Of a stretch of 64,000 nucleotides of DNA, positions 55,596 through 64,000 are shown piece after piece. Within the stretch, counting starts at the first letter, position 1, and the number at the start of each line of letters is the position of its first letter. This DNA is from Paramacrobiotus metropolitanus (lineage: Eukaryota > Tardigrada > Eutardigrada > Parachela > Macrobiotidae). The position numbers and the translations under genes are program-made. The stretch is from contig NW_026570277.1 in assembly GCF_019649055.1 (NCBI RefSeq), positions 496,001-560,000 on the forward strand. The letters run 5' to 3'. The notes under the pieces are model-generated. The model did no database searches and was not told where the DNA came from. It was given only the letters and a program-made list of their open reading frames with translations.

Positions 55596-57715
55596 CTGTT
55601 GCAAAATGTTTGGAACGCTTGAAGTTAGAGGTACCAACGAGAAAAAAAAGCTTGTTTCAATAAATTTGTGCATGTACAATGTACAATGTACGTACGGATA
55701 CGTATGCACAAATACATACTGGTATTCTGGTATTGCAGTTTCGTCACCATAACCAAACAAAAGTTTCAGGCTTTTGTAGAAAATTTGATTTGGTATGATA
55801 AATGTTGCGCTTAATGTGAATAAAATATGTTCATGGCAACAGATAACAGAACCTCTGGACCAGTTGCGGCGGTTGGCTAATAAATACGCATGCTAAAATG
55901 ACCAAAATAGTGTGAGAAGTTCAGTCGAAATGTCTGTACGTAGCGATCCATAAATAAAAGTTTCTCACACACAGAAATCGGGGGGCTGAAAATTTAAAGA
56001 GATCTTTGCGTTAACAACTTTGTAATAATTTGTACCATAGCTTTTGGGCAATCCACTGCAGATACATGTGGTTCATCCACAATCCCCATATCCTTCCCGT
56101 ACAGTGTACAGCCAATAACGGCAACAGAACAACACAACAAGGCAGCACGGACTTTGCACCGTAGTCGTTGATTGTGACCGCCGCGATGCTCCCTGCCAGA
56201 ATAACCAACGGCAGCATGCCGATAATCAGCCATAACAAGAGCAAGGCCATTAGCCCCATCACGGATACAACGTACACCAAAATCATCGGCACACCGCACA
56301 GAAAACACTCAGATCGTGGGTCACAATAATTGGTGATGTCGCGAAAATAGGGAGTGATCTGGCGGCAGTAGCGCAGATGCTGCGGCCATGGCAGGAGATC
56401 CCAGTGCCGATTAAAAAATAGCGAGCACAGGACGGACACTGCTAAGATGACGGCAGATGATACGATGAGGAACGTTCCGAGATATCCAAAAGTCGCGGGT
56501 AAATGGGTCGCCGTGATAGAACGCGAAGTATTGTTGTGCTGAAAGGCCTCGGGTCTGTTGATCCAAGGAGATGCCACGTGATCCCATACACAACCATCGA
56601 TGTTCTAACATAACAAGTAAGTTTCTCTTTAATTAAAGAAGTAAAGTGTTTTTCGGTTAAACCTGTAGACAATTTGACTAGTTCTCGATCGCAGTCAGTC
56701 AGATACGATGGCTCAGTTCCGCAAAGCAGTGCACTTATACTTTTGTTTTCTGCGTAGCAGCTGTAACGATAACAAAAAATTTTTATAATGACTTATGGAA
56801 GACACTGGATTATTGTATGGTACTGTTTTAATTGCCAGATAATCGCTTTCAGAAACACGTTGTCTTTGACAAAATTTCTTTTGATTCAGGTTCCAGAAAA
56901 ATGTAGGAAATATGGCAATATTAAACAGATGTAATTTCAAATGTTTCCTGACGTTTGAGCCGTTTATACGAGCATGACCATACTTGAGCCGGTTTCTGAA
57001 TGTACAGTACTGCAAATTCGCATAATAATGTACGTTATGCCTGCAATAGTTATTTTCACAGATAGTATACTACATACATAATAAGATCATAGAATATTCT
57101 TACAAGTCCCAGTGCCCTGAGGAAAGCTTCCAGGCCCAAAAAGCTCCATGCACTACGGTCCACACGATCGTTCTGCCATTCCGGCAGAAAGCGGTAGCCC
57201 AGTTTGACGGCTACCTGACTGGTCAACCACAACACAACCATGGCTTCCGCCATGATTTCCTGGTATGCCCATGCTGACTTTTTATCCAGACGATTCCGGA
57301 CGGCCGTTCGCACTGTGTCCATCATGTGCACATGAGGTTTCCCTTCCCCGAGAAAATGACTAGACGTCAACCGTGCAAATACAGTGTACTCCGAGGTAAA
57401 CGGTTGAGATGTGACACAAATGCTGTTCCTATTGACAGCCAAAACACGGTCCCTCGTCAGAAAAACCATATACTTTAATGGTAACTTTTGAATTAGACTT
57501 AGATATTACAGATGATCTCCTTGTTTTATAATACTTACGAATATGAAACATTTAGATATGGATATAGAACATCATTTTGTATTTATTTCGACATATACCA
57601 CATAACTGGTACTACATAAAAAAACCAACATCCGAGACATACTTTCTCACGAAAATACCAACATAATTAGATAAAAAAATCGATTTTGGTTAATGCGCCA
57701 GAACCATAAACGGAG

Positions 57716-57812: not shown

Positions 57813-57951
57813 CACAGGGGCAAGTATAGCCATGGATGTCGACATCCAAATGCATCAGTCCAGGTCCGCGGCGTATCCTGACTGATCAGGCTTGGAGTGG
57901 TTCCGGCGATAATAGTACAGCTGGCTGAAAGCCTGCAGCAATTCAATCTCT

Positions 57952-60900
57952 TTAATTGGCATTGCACTTTGCCAGGATCCCTGGATGGTACTGATTGATG
58001 TACCCTGTAAAAAAGTGTAGCAAATAATTCCTAATGATATAAAAAAAATGTTTTTGGACACTTACCCAAAACATCTCTCAGCAAGTCGTTGCCAAAGGCA
58101 CCTTCAACCCAAAGCGGTCTCCAGTAAACAAGCGCAGGGCATTGTCTTCGGATCCAAAACAGTAACGCAAGGTTCACAGCATCCATCATCAGTACGCGAG
58201 CTGGTGTAAGGTTGACCTTAAAATTCTGGAACCGCGCGGCAGGCAGGTAATGACCAGATCCAGGGAACAGCTCCACCACATCTGCCGAACGTGTGCGCCA
58301 CTGTCGGCGCAACTGTTAAGTAGGGCGGTCTGCTCCTCAGTCCGCTCTAAAATAATAAAAATGTTGATGTCGACATCAAAATTAATTTAATATGAAAAAT
58401 ACGTTCGGAATACTTTTTTGTCGCTTTTCCTTCCGAGCAACCGGTGAAAACGGCTTTCGTTTGCTACCCACAAAATCTACAAATACGAAAACTTAAAACA
58501 TCGCTGACTTGAGAAAATCAGTTTCATTAAAAAGATTAATTACCTTCCTCTCCCTGCGCGAACGTCGGCGTGCGCATGCGAGCTGTAGCACCTGCATTCC
58601 CGGTGTGATCCCGTTTCTTGCCAGATGGAAGATTTTGCTCATACGTAGAGTAAAATTCGCGTTTTTCTGCAGAAATGTGTAAATTACAATTTTTTTCCGT
58701 TTCTTTAACACGACACAGAAGCACAAAATGATTACCGTTATTTCGCTTGTTCGCGTAAGGGCGCAAAGACACCATTTTATTTCGGGTCGACCCGAATCCT
58801 GAAAATGAACAAATGCGCGTATCCGTATCCAGTTAAACTGATTACCAACCAAACTGATTAGCAAAGTGCTTACCAAACAAATCCGCCGCAGTCGGTTTGC
58901 TTTGCACGGAATCTGTAAAAATTGTAACGATAATTGGAGTTTCGGTATTTGCCTCGTTTACCGCTTATGTAGTGTTATCGTTTTAAAGTTAAAAAGGCAA
59001 ACAAATGCTAGGATTTCAGGAAACAGTATCTTACGTCCATGATCCGAGATCTTGTGCTTGCGCTGTTCACTGATTTCGTGCGTCCGCTCAGTGGATTTAC
59101 GGCCGACCATGGTTTCATCTGCGCATACAAATTTATAACAAATTACCTAATTTAAAATTTGTCGGTCAACCGACACAAAAAAGGGACGCAAAGCATTGTC
59201 AAGCAAAATCATAATAGTCAATTACGTTAATTCTTACAATCGTAAGTACGTACGTTAATTGTTACGTAAAATTGATGGACAATACTAATAGAGTGCGGTT
59301 TCTGTCAAAAAGTTTAGGCATATTACTTGATCTCACCTTCTGAGTCTTTACTGTATCGCACATTCCGCATGCCCAAATTGAGATCTGTAAAAACTATGTT
59401 ATGTAGAACACTAAAAGCTCGATTTATTATGAGAGTTTACCTTCTTCAACTGACTTCCGGTCAGGGTGTTTCTCGCCTAAACACACACCAATAATTTATC
59501 ATACTGAAGGTCGACCTTCACAAAATGCAGTCTGCCAAAAGCTTACGCAGTGGCTTTATTTCCTATACCAAAAACTAACATACATTCGTGTATTTTGTAT
59601 TATTTGCGTACCGTTTTTTGTTTCGCCGTCTACCGTCGATAATACGCGTTGCGGCTTGCTGACCTCACCTAAATCAGGATAAATGCAGACTGCGATTATG
59701 GAACAATATCGTGTTCAAAAACGTGCCTTCATCAGAGCTCGTATCTGGGAATTGCCAAATATTTATCTTGCTTTTCACACCACGGAAGTCTGCAAAAAGT
59801 GATAACAACATTATAATTTTTCGACAACTGGTTGAAGGTCGACCTTCATTTAAGAAAGCAACCTGGAAATACTAATTCAATTTTAAAAATAAATAAATGG
59901 TTGAAATACTAAATATTAAAATATTTTATTAGATATTTAAAAAATCATTTCTTTGATTCACGCAAAAATCAGTTTTATGGTTGTTTTTTTATAATTTCGC
60001 TAAGAACATTAAAATAATCGATTCAGAAAACCCGAGCGGAACAGTACGGAGAACAATTTACCTTCCTCCTTGCGTTTGGACTGGTGCTGAGAATTTCGCC
60101 CCGTTTCCTTGCTCTCAGTTTCACCTATAATCACCATAAATGAAGGTCGACCTTCAGAATATTATTTAAAACAACGATAAAAATGTTCGGATACCGTCGA
60201 CTGGTTTTCCAGTATACGGATCAAATTTCCAAACGGACTTCTGGTTTTTATCGGTCCCGCCAGAAACACAATCCTGTTCAGTACGCAAATTTCCGATTTC
60301 TTCGAAAAGCGCGTCAGCGGCAGCCCGTTTCGATGGGGTTAACGACTGTTTTTTCTGAATCAGAAAATTAATCCAAATTTTATAGCTGACATATTTATGG
60401 AAGTCGACTTCCAACATTCAAATACGTGTACCTTTCCGCTTCTTGGCTTCAGTGAATTAAAACGCGCCACAGCTTTTTCCTTGCTGGTGGTAACTAATAC
60501 AACTTCGGCATCGAAAAACTGCTGTGCGTTCCCTTCACGCTTGTAATGGACGCTGATGAAATTGCCAGGCACTAGGAATTCTCCGTAGTCATACCCATCG
60601 CACAGTTCCCACTGTGCTTTTGTTGCCGACTTGCTCATTGGTAACACCATGGGAATCTTGTCGCTTTCAAACACAACGACCAAGAAATCTGAAACAAAGT
60701 GCACGACGACATGCAATACATGTGAGCCGCAAAATGTAACAATCTACTACAAACATATAAACCCAAAATATCAAAAATGCACTAATTTCCCCAGTTTTAA
60801 AGGTCCTGTTCTTTTTGCATGTCGACATGTACTTGCCGCACTTCGATAAATTAGGCGCTTTGGGTAACAAAACCGTAAAAACTAGTAATATTTCAAGCGC

Positions 60901-61119
60901 ATTAACAGAAGCTAACGTTCCGGCTTTTAGGAGAAAGTGAAACGGTTACCGATCTTAACTGAACAGATGGAACCGGCACTACCTAAAAACGAAAAATTGT
61001 GTACCGTTTCGTTCAGCATGCCGGCGATGGATCTCATCTCTTTCCATCAAAGAAGGGTCTTCGCATTGCTCTTCCATGGACGTGCCCTTCCGCTCACGCA
61101 GCTTTCGCTCGCATGACAT
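57952..61119 (-). CDS. Probable BEN-domain protein of the En/Spm-like transposon (14 exons)
   Basis: Exons: 61005-61119, 60432-60688, 60195-60354, 60062-60124, 59612-59668, 59441-59476, 59337-59384, 59035-59118, 58874-58912, 58736-58798, 58544-58666, 58403-58476, 58066-58312, 57952-58004. All borders are GT-AG and the frame closes at 473 codons. Residues 39-124 form a globular N-terminal unit (FLVVVFESDKIPMVLP...FISVHYK) like the small domain preceding BEN in animal proteins. Then come about 200 charged, low-complexity residues. The last 110 (VVELFPGSGHYLPAARF, then ARVLMMDAVNLALLFW and a final helix) fit a BEN domain, a DNA-binding fold. Most internal introns are phase 1. It is divergent from the transposase, like the TnpA/TnpD pair of plant CACTA elements by role, not by sequence. 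BEN assignment is by pattern only. Confidence 0.65.
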
Positions 61120-61610
61120 GGTGTTTCAGGCTGGAAAATCAAGATTTTCACCAGTATGAGCGTTCAAAAATTATACTGGCTGTCGACAGCCAATACGTTT
61201 GAAACAAAAAGGTTCCCAAATCGCAAAAGCCATCAGATTTTGAATAATACTGGAAACAAAAAAACTGACATTTAATTCTTTGTTTTTTGTCTAGCGAGAT
61301 AACGCTCCGCAAGTGAGAGAAGTGGAAAAATCTTCATGTTTAATTTTAAATCATGAATACCAGCCAATAGCAGGAGGCAGAAAATTAGCTTGGCTCAGAA
61401 TGCACCTATCGCAGAGCTTTGTTCAAATGGAGGGTACCAGTCCATTCCTGATCGGGTGCCTTTTTAATGGTAACCGTGTGGTGTGCGGCAAATTTGCATG
61501 TCGACATGCAAACTCGCCTCCACAAAATTTCTAAATTTAAAATTTAAATGTTCTTTTAAATTTATTATTGATTTGTTGTTTATCTGTAATTCAGTTTTTT
61601 TGCATTTATA
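61120..61610. promoter_or_regulatory. Shared upstream region of the divergent BEN and transposase genes
   Basis: The two start codons (61119 on -, 61611 on +) are 491 bp apart. Two palindromes (61177, 61495) sit inside, each about 60-120 bp from one start. The 61495 site is the longest of the array. A bidirectional promoter with element-specific binding sites is a reasonable inference. Confidence 0.5.
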
Positions 61611-64000
61611 ATGTCTGCACCAAAACGAAGTAGTGGTCTTGATCGGCTTTTTGGGAATAAAGGCTTAAGCAGAACTTCTTATTATCGAAGAAAAGTTGCG
61701 AGTTTTCCTGGTCTGGATGCTCAACAGTTGCAGAGCCCACAGCGACCCATTGAGGTAAGCACATAATAAATAAAAATGATAAAAATTTCGGTAAACGATT
61801 TATGGTAATTGCTCAGCACTTAATACTTTTTTACCCTGCAGTAGTTTATTGTTTTTAACTAGGGCGCATCAGAGCATGATTGCATGTCGACATGCAGCAC
61901 TGCTGTTCGCAATTTCAGCCACAACGATGTAGTTGGCTCTGATGCTGAAGATCTGATTGAAGCAGAACCAGATTTAACAGCGCTATACAACAGAGAAGGA
62001 GAAAGCAACTTTGAGAAGGTTTTATCGTTTTTACGTATATCTCGGAAACATCGGATGTCCCGCATCCAGCTGGATGCGATGCTGAAGTTTTTTGGTCAGA
62101 TATCCGGACAGGAATTTCCCGACAATCTTTATAAGTTAGACAAGATCTTGCAACCACACCTGCTACCAGCCGAAAAGCATTTTTATTGTCCTGCTCATGG
62201 AAATTATATTGGAGAAGATTCTTCTTTGATCGAGCCATTGTCCTGTACAAGCGCTGATTGCGAGTCGACTCGCAAAACGAAAAAAGAGCTGGAGGATATC
62301 GGTGGCGTTTTCTACGTGTTCCCCATGTTGGAAAGCATAACAAGATATCTGAGCCTTCAGAAAAATAGAAGTGAAGTTTTCTCAAGGAAGCCGCAGGACA
62401 CGCGCATGTTGGACGTTCAAGATGGAAAGCGATACAAAGAGCTACTTGTTGGGGCCGCCGATTTAACAATTACGTTTCATATGGATTCTGGAAACGTCTT
62501 CGGGATTGGCGGCAGTGAAAACGGCTGCGTGACAATTTTCGACTATCTGATTAATGAACTTCCGCCAAGAAAGCGGTACCGTCGGCCATTTTTGTATGCC
62601 ATTGCAGTGGGAAAGATCCAGCCGAGTTCGCAGATTTTGCTTCAATTATTTACGACTGAGTGCAAGCGCCTTTGTGTGTCGACACACAATACTTTTAGAA
62701 TTATCCCTGCATTGTTTATTGCTGATGCCGTTGCAAGGATGGATGCTATGCTCCACGTATCATTCTTAGCGGAGTACGGCTGCACTTACTGCCTGCATCC
62801 TGGTGAAATTGTAGCTGGGGTCCGTGTGTATCCTTGCGGTGTGGGTGGAGCATTTATACTGAAGACTAAATCAGTGTATTTGGAATCTTCGAAGGATGCA
62901 GTACGTGACGGACACCCTGTTACGGGCTGCAACGGACCTTCCCAAATACTGCGGTTAACGTCGATCGATCCCTCTATGTCATGTCCACCCGATGTACTTC
63001 ACGCAATATGCCTGGGACAAATGAAGAAAATTCTACAGTACTGGACGAAAGATAGCATGAAGTCTTTGGCAGCATATGCTGCAATGTCAGACGAAAGGAA
63101 AAAAGTGTTAAACAATGCTCGCCTTGTGGAGGTCGACCTCCAAATTTCAAGAATTAAGTTTCCATCTGAATTTTCCCGCTCCATTCCACCTCTTTCAGCA
63201 AGCGGATACTACCACGGTACTGAATATCTCAATCTGCTGCTGTACGGCGCATTTTACGTCTTCGATGGCCAAGTGCCTCATGTCCTATACGAAAATTTAA
63301 TGGATCTTGTAATGGCTGTGCACCTTTTGTTAACGGATCACCAACTGTATCACGGAAATTTGCAAGAACATTCCGAATTGGTGCGGAAACTTGTGGAGAA
63401 GTTTTCTGGGCAATTCGAAAAACTGTATGGAAAACGCAAAATGCTGTACAATACGCACCAGTTAAATCATTTTGCACAAGCGCTGTGTAACTGGGGTCCA
63501 GCCTACCAATGGTCAACTTTCTATGCCGAGGATTTCTTAGGCCAGCTGAACCGTTCGGTCCATGGAAGCACGGATGTTTGCTCACAAATTATTCGAAACT
63601 ATCAGCACATCGAGTTGTTGCGACGATATGAAGATAACATTTCCAAAGCGGTGTTGAGCCATCATGGAGCAAAATATCACTTTGCGGGTCGACCCGCAGA
63701 AAAACCCCCGCTTTTATCAAAGGAAGAAGCGGCGATTTTGAACTTTCTTGCTGCAGATGAAGTGCCAGCAACTCTTCAGTTTTATAGCGCAGTTGTCAGA
63801 GATGACAATGTGATTTTTGAGTGCCGAGGATATGGAAAAAAAATCCGTAGGATCAACAGTTGGATTCAAACTGTTGCCCATGAAGTGGCACAGCTCCTTG
63901 TGTTTTTTTACGACGCGGATGCCCATATTTTCGGAGCGGTTGTTGACATCATCCCGAGTGTTGCATTCAAAAAGTTTAAATTGCCTAGCGGAGAAAGCCC
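61611..64000 (+). CDS. En/Spm (CACTA)-like transposase, 3' end beyond the window
   Basis: Exon 1 is 61611-61754 (48 codons, donor gtaagc). Exon 2 opens at 61863 and is still open at 64000, giving 760 residues so far. After a basic N-terminus there is a Cys/His group (FYCPAHG...CTSADC, residues about 150-180). Then LTITFHMDSGNVFG near 250, FIADAVARM near 335 with YGCTYCLHPG after it, DVLHAICLGQMKKIL, an ELxxLLYGAFYVF-like helix, KLYGKRKMLYNTHQLNHFAQ, and GPAYQWSTFYAEDFLGQL near 600. This order matches tnp2-type transposases of animal En/Spm elements; D255, D336 and E602 (approximate) are candidate DDE residues. Five palindromes are embedded in its coding sequence in differing frames without disrupting it. 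No stop or frameshift is seen, so it may be active. Confidence 0.75.

Follow-up and report, generated by a model that had tools for sequence, protein, structure and literature searches.

Regularly spaced self-complementary palindromes as candidate DNA-level signals in two unrelated transposon families of the tardigrade Paramacrobiotus metropolitanus

The window analysed here is a stretch of 64,000 nucleotides of the tardigrade Paramacrobiotus metropolitanus (C57:496001-560000, where C57 designates the contig that holds it), and its last part is occupied by the beginning of a large DNA transposon, element A, the family reported in a preliminary description of the same sequence. Element A carries many copies of a short palindromic unit, TGNNN-GTCGAC-N'N'N'CA (with TT...AA in some sites), which comprises a 6-bp stem and a 4-nt TCGA loop, 16 bp in all. 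These sites pair beyond chance, are conserved between copies, are regularly spaced and occur in two transposon superfamilies, since the same device was found in a family of hAT elements. We regard them, with a confidence slightly short of even, as cis elements that function at the DNA level in two DNA transposon families unrelated to each other and that are partly recognised through self-pairing; the self-paired form, its protein reader and its purpose are what we infer from these observations. The greater length of the element, the unrelated hAT family with the same device and the place-specific conservation of the arms go beyond the preliminary description.

The 14 perfect palindromes with a GTCGAC centre, and the two further sites with a single mismatched pair, that had been reported at 57833-63698 were indeed found there (Table 1); the perfect ones measure 16-20 bp each, and the mismatch of the other two lies in an arm in one case and in the centre in the other. 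In the five-letter arm, hereafter the arm word, position 2 is chiefly G and position 5 chiefly G or T, and more palindromes of element A lie beyond the window end. At equal base use, about 0.09 perfect 16-bp palindromes would be expected in 5.9 kb. Window positions 1-57000 contain nine GTCGAC hexamers, each with at most one paired flanking base. The 6-kb extent first assigned to the transposon was too small, as element A is about 17.2 kb long (C57:553451-570644), about three times longer, starting at window position 57451 and ending beyond the window.

All five flanking pairs were matched at 82 of the 106 GTCGAC hexamers in eight element copies and at 0 of 18 in a background of 113 kb chosen from the loci analysed, a comparison in which the element copies are related and the events are thus not independent. 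In the C57 element, GTCGAC occurs 23 times; in 200 resampled sequences (first-order Markov, as for the stem-loop counts that follow) its mean number was 2.5 and its maximum 7. When the 64 palindromic hexamers were compared as centres in three elements, GTCGAC was fully paired in 27 of 33 cases, and all the others together gave one. Units with a six-base stem and a four-base loop numbered 36 in each of the C57 and C19 copies of element A (resampled means of 5.6 and 5.1, respectively); in neither copy was there a comparable excess at another loop length, except for a slight one at loop 6 in which partly the same sites are counted. The hAT copy on C54 had eight such units versus 0.6 after resampling, and also a slight excess at loops of 3, 6 and 7 (5, 5 and 5 vs. 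about 1).

Covariation between the arms was measured on 33 sites from three elements, unselected for pairing, and compared with 500 shuffles and six slid controls. Standard pairs were found in 94.9% of pair cells, against a shuffled mean of 63.8%, and the covariation score was 0.748, against 0.174, with 0/500 shuffles reaching either value. Three measures were above all the shuffles and all six slid controls, namely the paired share, the covariation score and the count of cells in which both sides had changed. Two other measures were not outstanding, namely the pairs with two-sided change (5 vs. 4.0 shuffled, reached by 93/500 shuffles, with three slides also reaching 5) and the pair types (16 vs. 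13.5 shuffled, reached by 38/500). At the 27 fully paired sites, each of the five arm positions was paired in 27/27, and the next outward position in 4/27.

Other copies of element A, whose inspection had been recommended in the preliminary description, carry the sites at the same places, and the absence that it had named as a contrary outcome was not found. Over 19 aligned sites, the six-pair stem was intact at 17 in C57 and at 16 in each of C19, C122 and C116, and both arms were identical between C57 and C116 at 14/19 sites, with a sequence identity of 66.6% over the aligned 8 kb. The difference from the local consensus was 31/1512 (2.05%) in the stem, 12/504 (2.4%) in the loop and 1338/8498 (15.7%) in the flanks; this count omits C371, whose sequence is 99.5% identical to that of C54, and both this and the 19-site counts omit the TGAAG site at column 2148/2174, which is misaligned in C116 and of which both copies have one. 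Within the transposase gene, the four-fold degenerate sites of C57 and C116 were the same at 13/16 in palindromes and 106/232 outside (p=0.008), and, among the three that differed in palindromes, two are both sides of one pair and the third is in the loop. For the closer copies C19 and C122, these sites were the same at 16/16 each (p=0.14 and 0.086, not significant alone). The arms, described at first as variable, do differ between sites, where they remain paired, whereas at any given place they are strongly conserved.

Six short relatives of about 2 kb, with 54-83% pairwise identity, have six sites in common order, and 4 to 6 of 6 stems are intact per site. The loop is TTGA in 5/6 copies at site 2, where the closing pair is broken in one, and TCGT in 5/6 copies at site 4. 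The longest stop-to-stop frame of these short copies is 120 amino acids, and they may still contain spliced genes. The first word, TGGAT, and the last word, TGTCG, are common to element A and the short family.

Two clean compensated differences were identified between copies. In element A, TGCGG/CCGCA corresponds to TGCAG/CTGCA in C116, both changes being synonymous and located in the transposase gene, and in the hAT family TGCTG/CAGCA corresponds to TGCGG/CCGCA, a double transversion whose TGCGG form is common to C120 and C347. A third event (column 3390) is doubtful, the C116 row being possibly not homologous. The arms stay complementary, vary from site to site and have undergone a few compensatory changes, which supports the selection on symmetry originally proposed. 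As for the changes in the centre, CpG decay was considered as their origin and is disfavoured, the observed/expected CpG ratio of the window being 1.10.

To the second family belong the element at C54:640282-643368 and related copies on C371, C120 and C347; these are hAT elements, with 8-bp target duplications in 4/4 copies and a match to the hAT dimerisation domain PF05699 (21.9 bits vs. a cut-off of 21.4). The translated comparison of hAT with element A gave a best E value of 0.1 and no common protein domain, and the two families are, judged by their sequences, unrelated. Seven sites are found at the same places in every aligned hAT copy, some of them mismatched, with the words TGCTG or TGCGG, TTTGG, TGTAG twice, TTAGG, TGCAC (loop TCGT) and TGAAG. 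Mismatched are TTAGG (outer pair, every copy), TGCAC (outer pair, C120 and C347) and TTTGG (one pair, C120). The TGCAC site, at least, is within the coding region of the dimerisation domain. Element A, the hAT family and the short family also share a site class in which TGCAC or TGCAT arms enclose the asymmetric loop TCGT/ACGA (60700-60715; L036:5715-5730; L043:1059-1074).

The even spread noted at first was borne out, since the 20 sites in the left 7.7 kb of element A have a mean interval of 383 bp with a coefficient of variation (CV) of 0.27, against about 0.9 under random placement. The corresponding values were 352 bp and 0.34 for the seven hAT sites, and 279 bp and 0.26 for the six sites of the short copy on C37. 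In folding predictions of single-stranded DNA, 10/10 sites formed a stem-loop at -2.8 to -5.1 kcal/mol, and hairpin formation would thus be possible, not strong. One-sided transitions compatible with G-U pairing numbered 6 on the + strand and 5 on the - strand over all families; there were 4 vs. 1 in element A and hAT, taken in the coding sense, and 2 vs. 4 in the short family, and the addition of three fragment sites gave 6 vs. 2 in the coding-sense families (p=0.29). A DNA-level signal is favoured because the short copies keep the sites and the usual loop TCGA is its own reverse complement, while the split count of 4 vs. 1 led us to raise the probability of a role in RNA and to lower slightly that of the DNA-level reading.

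In the 170 Mb of the genome searched, the bare pattern TNNNNGTCGACNNNNA occurred 2539 times, against 5489 for the reversed pattern, and among the 52 matches listed, all on contig C1, three were perfect palindromes, all within one short copy. In the genome scan proposed earlier, the bare pattern is not enriched; the background GTCGAC are unpaired. The equal density across the genome that had been named as contrary evidence was not observed, the sites being concentrated in transposons. Stricter patterns, in which one more pair was required besides the core and the TG rim (TG form only, not TT...AA), gave 74, 112, 16 and 58 occurrences vs. 27, 10, 7 and 24 for the reversed controls. Among the matches listed (50, 50, 16 and 50), the perfect palindromes numbered, by our reading, 42, 40, 14 and 39, or 135/166, where about 1 in 16 would be expected; not all these places were traced to an element. 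Perfect sites outside both families were found, among the matches listed, on C21/C27, C38/C72, C11/C29 and C22, a number near the 2-3 estimated by chance.

Some loci with such palindromes deserve mention on their own. The palindrome region of L040 is Maverick-like by eye, with a poly-alanine capsid-like frame (no convincing Pfam match) adjoining a thymidylate kinase, PF02223 (L040:66-1835 and 1926-2645), and its palindromes, like those of the gene pair L041 and L042 that follows, may be due to chance. The loci at L041:1279 (C38) and L042:1430 and 2107 (C11) are related by eye, with palindromes TGCCT vs. TGTCT, and the flanks of L041:1279 and L042:2107 are similar (gcggt), which raises the possibility of a compensatory change outside both transposon families. 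On C22, four GTCGAC-like quasi-palindromes, one of them perfect (TGGAA), lie within 230 bp (L039:2231-2461).

In the reading that we prefer, the unit would be built of a near-fixed core (GTCGAC, with TCGA as its hairpin loop), a rim that is preferably TG/CA, and three pairs whose letters vary from site to site while pairing is kept. The simplest account of the coupling between the arms would be that the unit is read in a self-paired form, be it a cruciform or a short hairpin, or that its reader detects the pairing of the arms together with the core. This reader, which would bind the core and require paired arms, may be a common host factor or a trans-acting product of gene 2 of element A, gene 2 being only a candidate for a role such as that of VANC (treated below). 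A protein would be loaded at intervals along the element, as suggested by the regular spacing over coding and non-coding DNA and by the retention of six sites in copies of about 2 kb that lack long open frames; such spacing fits this better than recognition of the ends alone. Its purpose would most likely be to keep the element open against silencing or to help the transposition complex assemble. A broader version, in which two unrelated animal transposon superfamilies mark themselves with spaced units and a shared host factor reads self-complementarity (as hairpin or cruciform) and the TCGA loop as a self/non-self or anti-silencing code that lies in symmetry and not in sequence, is doubtful, and we offer it as a speculation.

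Several observations weigh against this preferred reading. Pairing was lost in 24 cells, some of them through shared inheritance and at least one changed on both sides, vs. 3 compensated (2 clean, 1 doubtful). The compensatory change that the preliminary description proposed to look for is clean in two instances and outnumbered by loss; private decay is among these losses, as the TTTGG mismatch of C120 is absent from C347, its 97% identical relative. Given so few compensated differences, the identity of the word at each place could itself matter. All four short-family words are also present in element A, as are the hAT words TGTAG, TGAAG, TGCAC and TGCGG. Element A has a gap of about 7 kb, from about 7.7 to 14.9-15.6 kb, in which no TCGA palindromes were found. 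For the extrusion of a cruciform from duplex DNA, a stem of 6 bp is short, and we know of no single-stranded stage for cut-and-paste transposons. The coding-sense counts of G-U-compatible changes are too few to argue against a role in RNA, the Pfam and PDB sequence searches of the gene 2 protein revealed no reader, and all copies come from one species.

The strongest alternative to self-pairing, which we nevertheless hold to be unlikely, is that the palindromes are ordinary double-stranded sites for paralogous homodimers, of the host or of the element, each reading one arm word around a common GTCGAC core. Homodimers yield symmetric sites, and this explanation accommodates the keeping of words by place in the 19-site comparison (16-17 stems intact per copy), their recurrence between families and the first and last words, TGGAT and TGTCG, that element A and the short family have in common. 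It would require one reader per word, amounting to more than 15 readers for a single element, and it is at odds with the compensated word differences between copies (TGCGG/TGCAG and TGCTG/TGCGG) and with the site class whose arms pair around the asymmetric loop TCGT. A somewhat less probable explanation is that RNA hairpins with a 6-bp stem and a UCGA loop form in element transcripts and are bound by an RNA-binding protein tolerant of stem sequence. RNA hairpins are typically recognised by a fixed loop on a paired stem of free sequence, several sites fall, by eye, within untranslated parts or putative introns of gene 2, and the G-U-compatible changes lean to the sense strand in the coding families, an excess that is not significant. 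Over all families this lean disappears, and it is inverted in the short family, whose copies, which may or may not be transcribed or spliced, keep the sites without long open frames; the loop that equals its own reverse complement is what a two-strand DNA signal would have.

Palindromes may also be written without selection by a mutational process, such as template switching at a hairpin, and quasi-palindrome correction is a known type of mutation. This mechanism, which the preliminary description had listed among its options, is very improbable, since pairing stops sharply past five arm pairs, at 16 bp, mismatches persist uncorrected, copies mostly keep their words, which are more conserved than the flanks, the spacing is regular, and full pairing is practically confined to the GTCGAC centre among all palindromic centres. 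Chance or an assembly artefact, for which nothing was found in favour, has a negligible probability and is refuted by the occurrence of the same sites in copies on separate contigs with different flanks and target duplications.

Regarding the element itself, the C19, C122, C116 and C29 copies start at the base equivalent to window position 57451, and the right end is TGACGAGGG at C57:570644. Target duplications of 3 bp were found in 5/6 copies with both ends read (two long and four short), being GGT in C57, ATA in C19, GAT in C37, TAA in C31 and TAA in C9, and lacking in C1:1899k. CACTA elements have ends that begin with CACTA/CACTG, and the termini of element A are CCCTCGTCA...TGACGAGGG. The transposase-like frame has no in-frame stops at aligned codons in C19, C122 and C116; the Pfam search of the 754-amino-acid protein and of its first 705 amino acids gave no match and no Tnp2-type domain. 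Its sole relative found was the metagenomic P0001, with 23-26% identity, in which a DUF4218 match is sub-threshold (21.8 bits vs. a cut-off of 27). An assignment to EnSpm/CACTA was considered, and the 3-bp duplication fits it; because the tests of the termini and the transposase domain fail, element A was not placed there. Gene 2 is annotated as LOC129588360 in the C29 copy, and its last exon is frame-disrupted in the C57 copy; a BEN domain suspected in it by eye had no Pfam or PDB sequence match. The interior of element A contains fragments of cargo genes, and these are not the same in C57 as in C19. An MFS-like fragment under the Pfam cut-off was noticed in C57 (L002:3555-3893, - strand), and pieces of a glycosyltransferase family 4 gene, one over the Pfam cut-off and ALG2-like by eye, in C19 (L023:2434-3005, - strand), whose right part also has a RING-like zinc-binding open frame under the Pfam cut-off (L023:7224-7529). 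Elsewhere in the window, identical GTCGAC contexts occur in pairs at 2682/9049 and 27606/35652, which suggests intra-window duplications.

Table 1. Features of element A within the window (positions are those of the window; words are left arms, and the centre is GTCGAC unless given)
Feature	Position	Strand	Remarks
Left terminal inverted repeat	57451..57460	+	CCCTCGTCAG; 3-bp target duplication GGT
Palindrome 1	57833..57848		TGGAT-GTCGAC-ATCCA
Gene 2, divergent, multi-exon	57855..61125	-	Exons assigned by eye, based on conservation among copies
Palindrome 2	58364..58379		TTGAT
Palindrome 3	58781..58796		TTCGG
Palindrome	59160..59175		TGTCG, arms perfect, centre GTCAAC; 1-2 arm pairs lost in C19, C122, C116
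Palindrome	59505..59520		TGAAG; C116 misaligned here, with its own TGAAG site close by
Palindrome	59833..59848		TGAAG
Palindrome	60141..60156		TGAAG
Palindrome	60398..60413		TGGAA
Degenerate site	60700..60715		TGCAC-GACGAC-ATGCA; arms paired in C122 copy
Palindrome, one arm pair mismatched	60816..60831		TGCAT-GTCGAC-ATGTA
Palindrome	61177..61192		TGGCT
Palindrome	61495..61510		TGCAT; pairing by chance out to 61493-61512
Palindrome at transposase start codon	61881..61896		TGCAT
Transposase-like open frame, 754 amino acids	61884..64000	+	Continues past the window
Palindrome within transposase gene	62259..62274		TGCGA
Palindrome within transposase gene	62673..62688		TGTGT
Palindrome within transposase gene	63127..63142		TGGAG
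Palindrome within transposase gene	63683..63698		TGCGG; TGCAG in C116, two-sided, both synonymous

Several known systems resemble this arrangement in part. According to the available portion of the published account, the VANC21 motif YAGTATTAY of Arabidopsis VANDAL transposons is a near-fixed 9-mer, mainly non-coding, often in tandem and rare in other transposons (PMC5735166). As in VANDAL, where the VANC protein is a sequence-specific reader with an anti-silencing role, a short motif is repeated inside a transposon; unlike the VANC motifs described in that portion, the units reported here have many paired arm words, include coding sites, are single and spaced, and occur in two superfamilies (PMC5735166). 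The subterminal repeats of CACTA (En/Spm) elements, bound by TNPA, are cis-determinants of transposition, and in the accessible part of the soybean study the Tgmt* repeats, located no more than 159 and 732 bp from the ends, can form stem-loops, with TTGGCAG in all 14 (PMC2613891). Element A is similar in its repeated motifs and 3-bp duplication, and differs from Tgmt*, as there presented, in having sites across much of its length and stems that differ (PMC2613891). The attC sites of integrons, bacterial recombination sites of 57-142 nt, are read through the structure of one folded strand with extrahelical bases, and their sequence is poorly conserved; to the extent covered by the source excerpt, the likeness is that arms pair while sequence varies, and the difference is that the present sites are 16-bp palindromes of animal transposons with no recombinase implied (PMC2727003). 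The BEN-domain proteins NACC1 and BANP read short CATG or CGCG sites and were studied on palindromic duplexes; their cores are fixed and covarying arms are not mentioned in the portion of the article available, whereas in the units described here the arms covary and gene 2 has no BEN match (PMC11472053). The literature on KolobokP, on p53 sites in zebrafish EnSpm and on tardigrade repeat curation, as far as its accessible parts extend, held no match to the palindrome arrangement. A literature search, thin on subscription journals, found no description of it. To our knowledge, no known system combines all these features.

Complementary arms that are kept while their letters differ are the usual signature of RNA structure. 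To see such selection in cut-and-paste transposon DNA, in coding as well as non-coding stretches and in two superfamilies of the same genome, would mean that DNA symmetry has a reader so far unknown. The 16-bp unit, its natural compensated variants and the short natural copies offer a handle on how transposons are recognised, protected and moved in a tardigrade.

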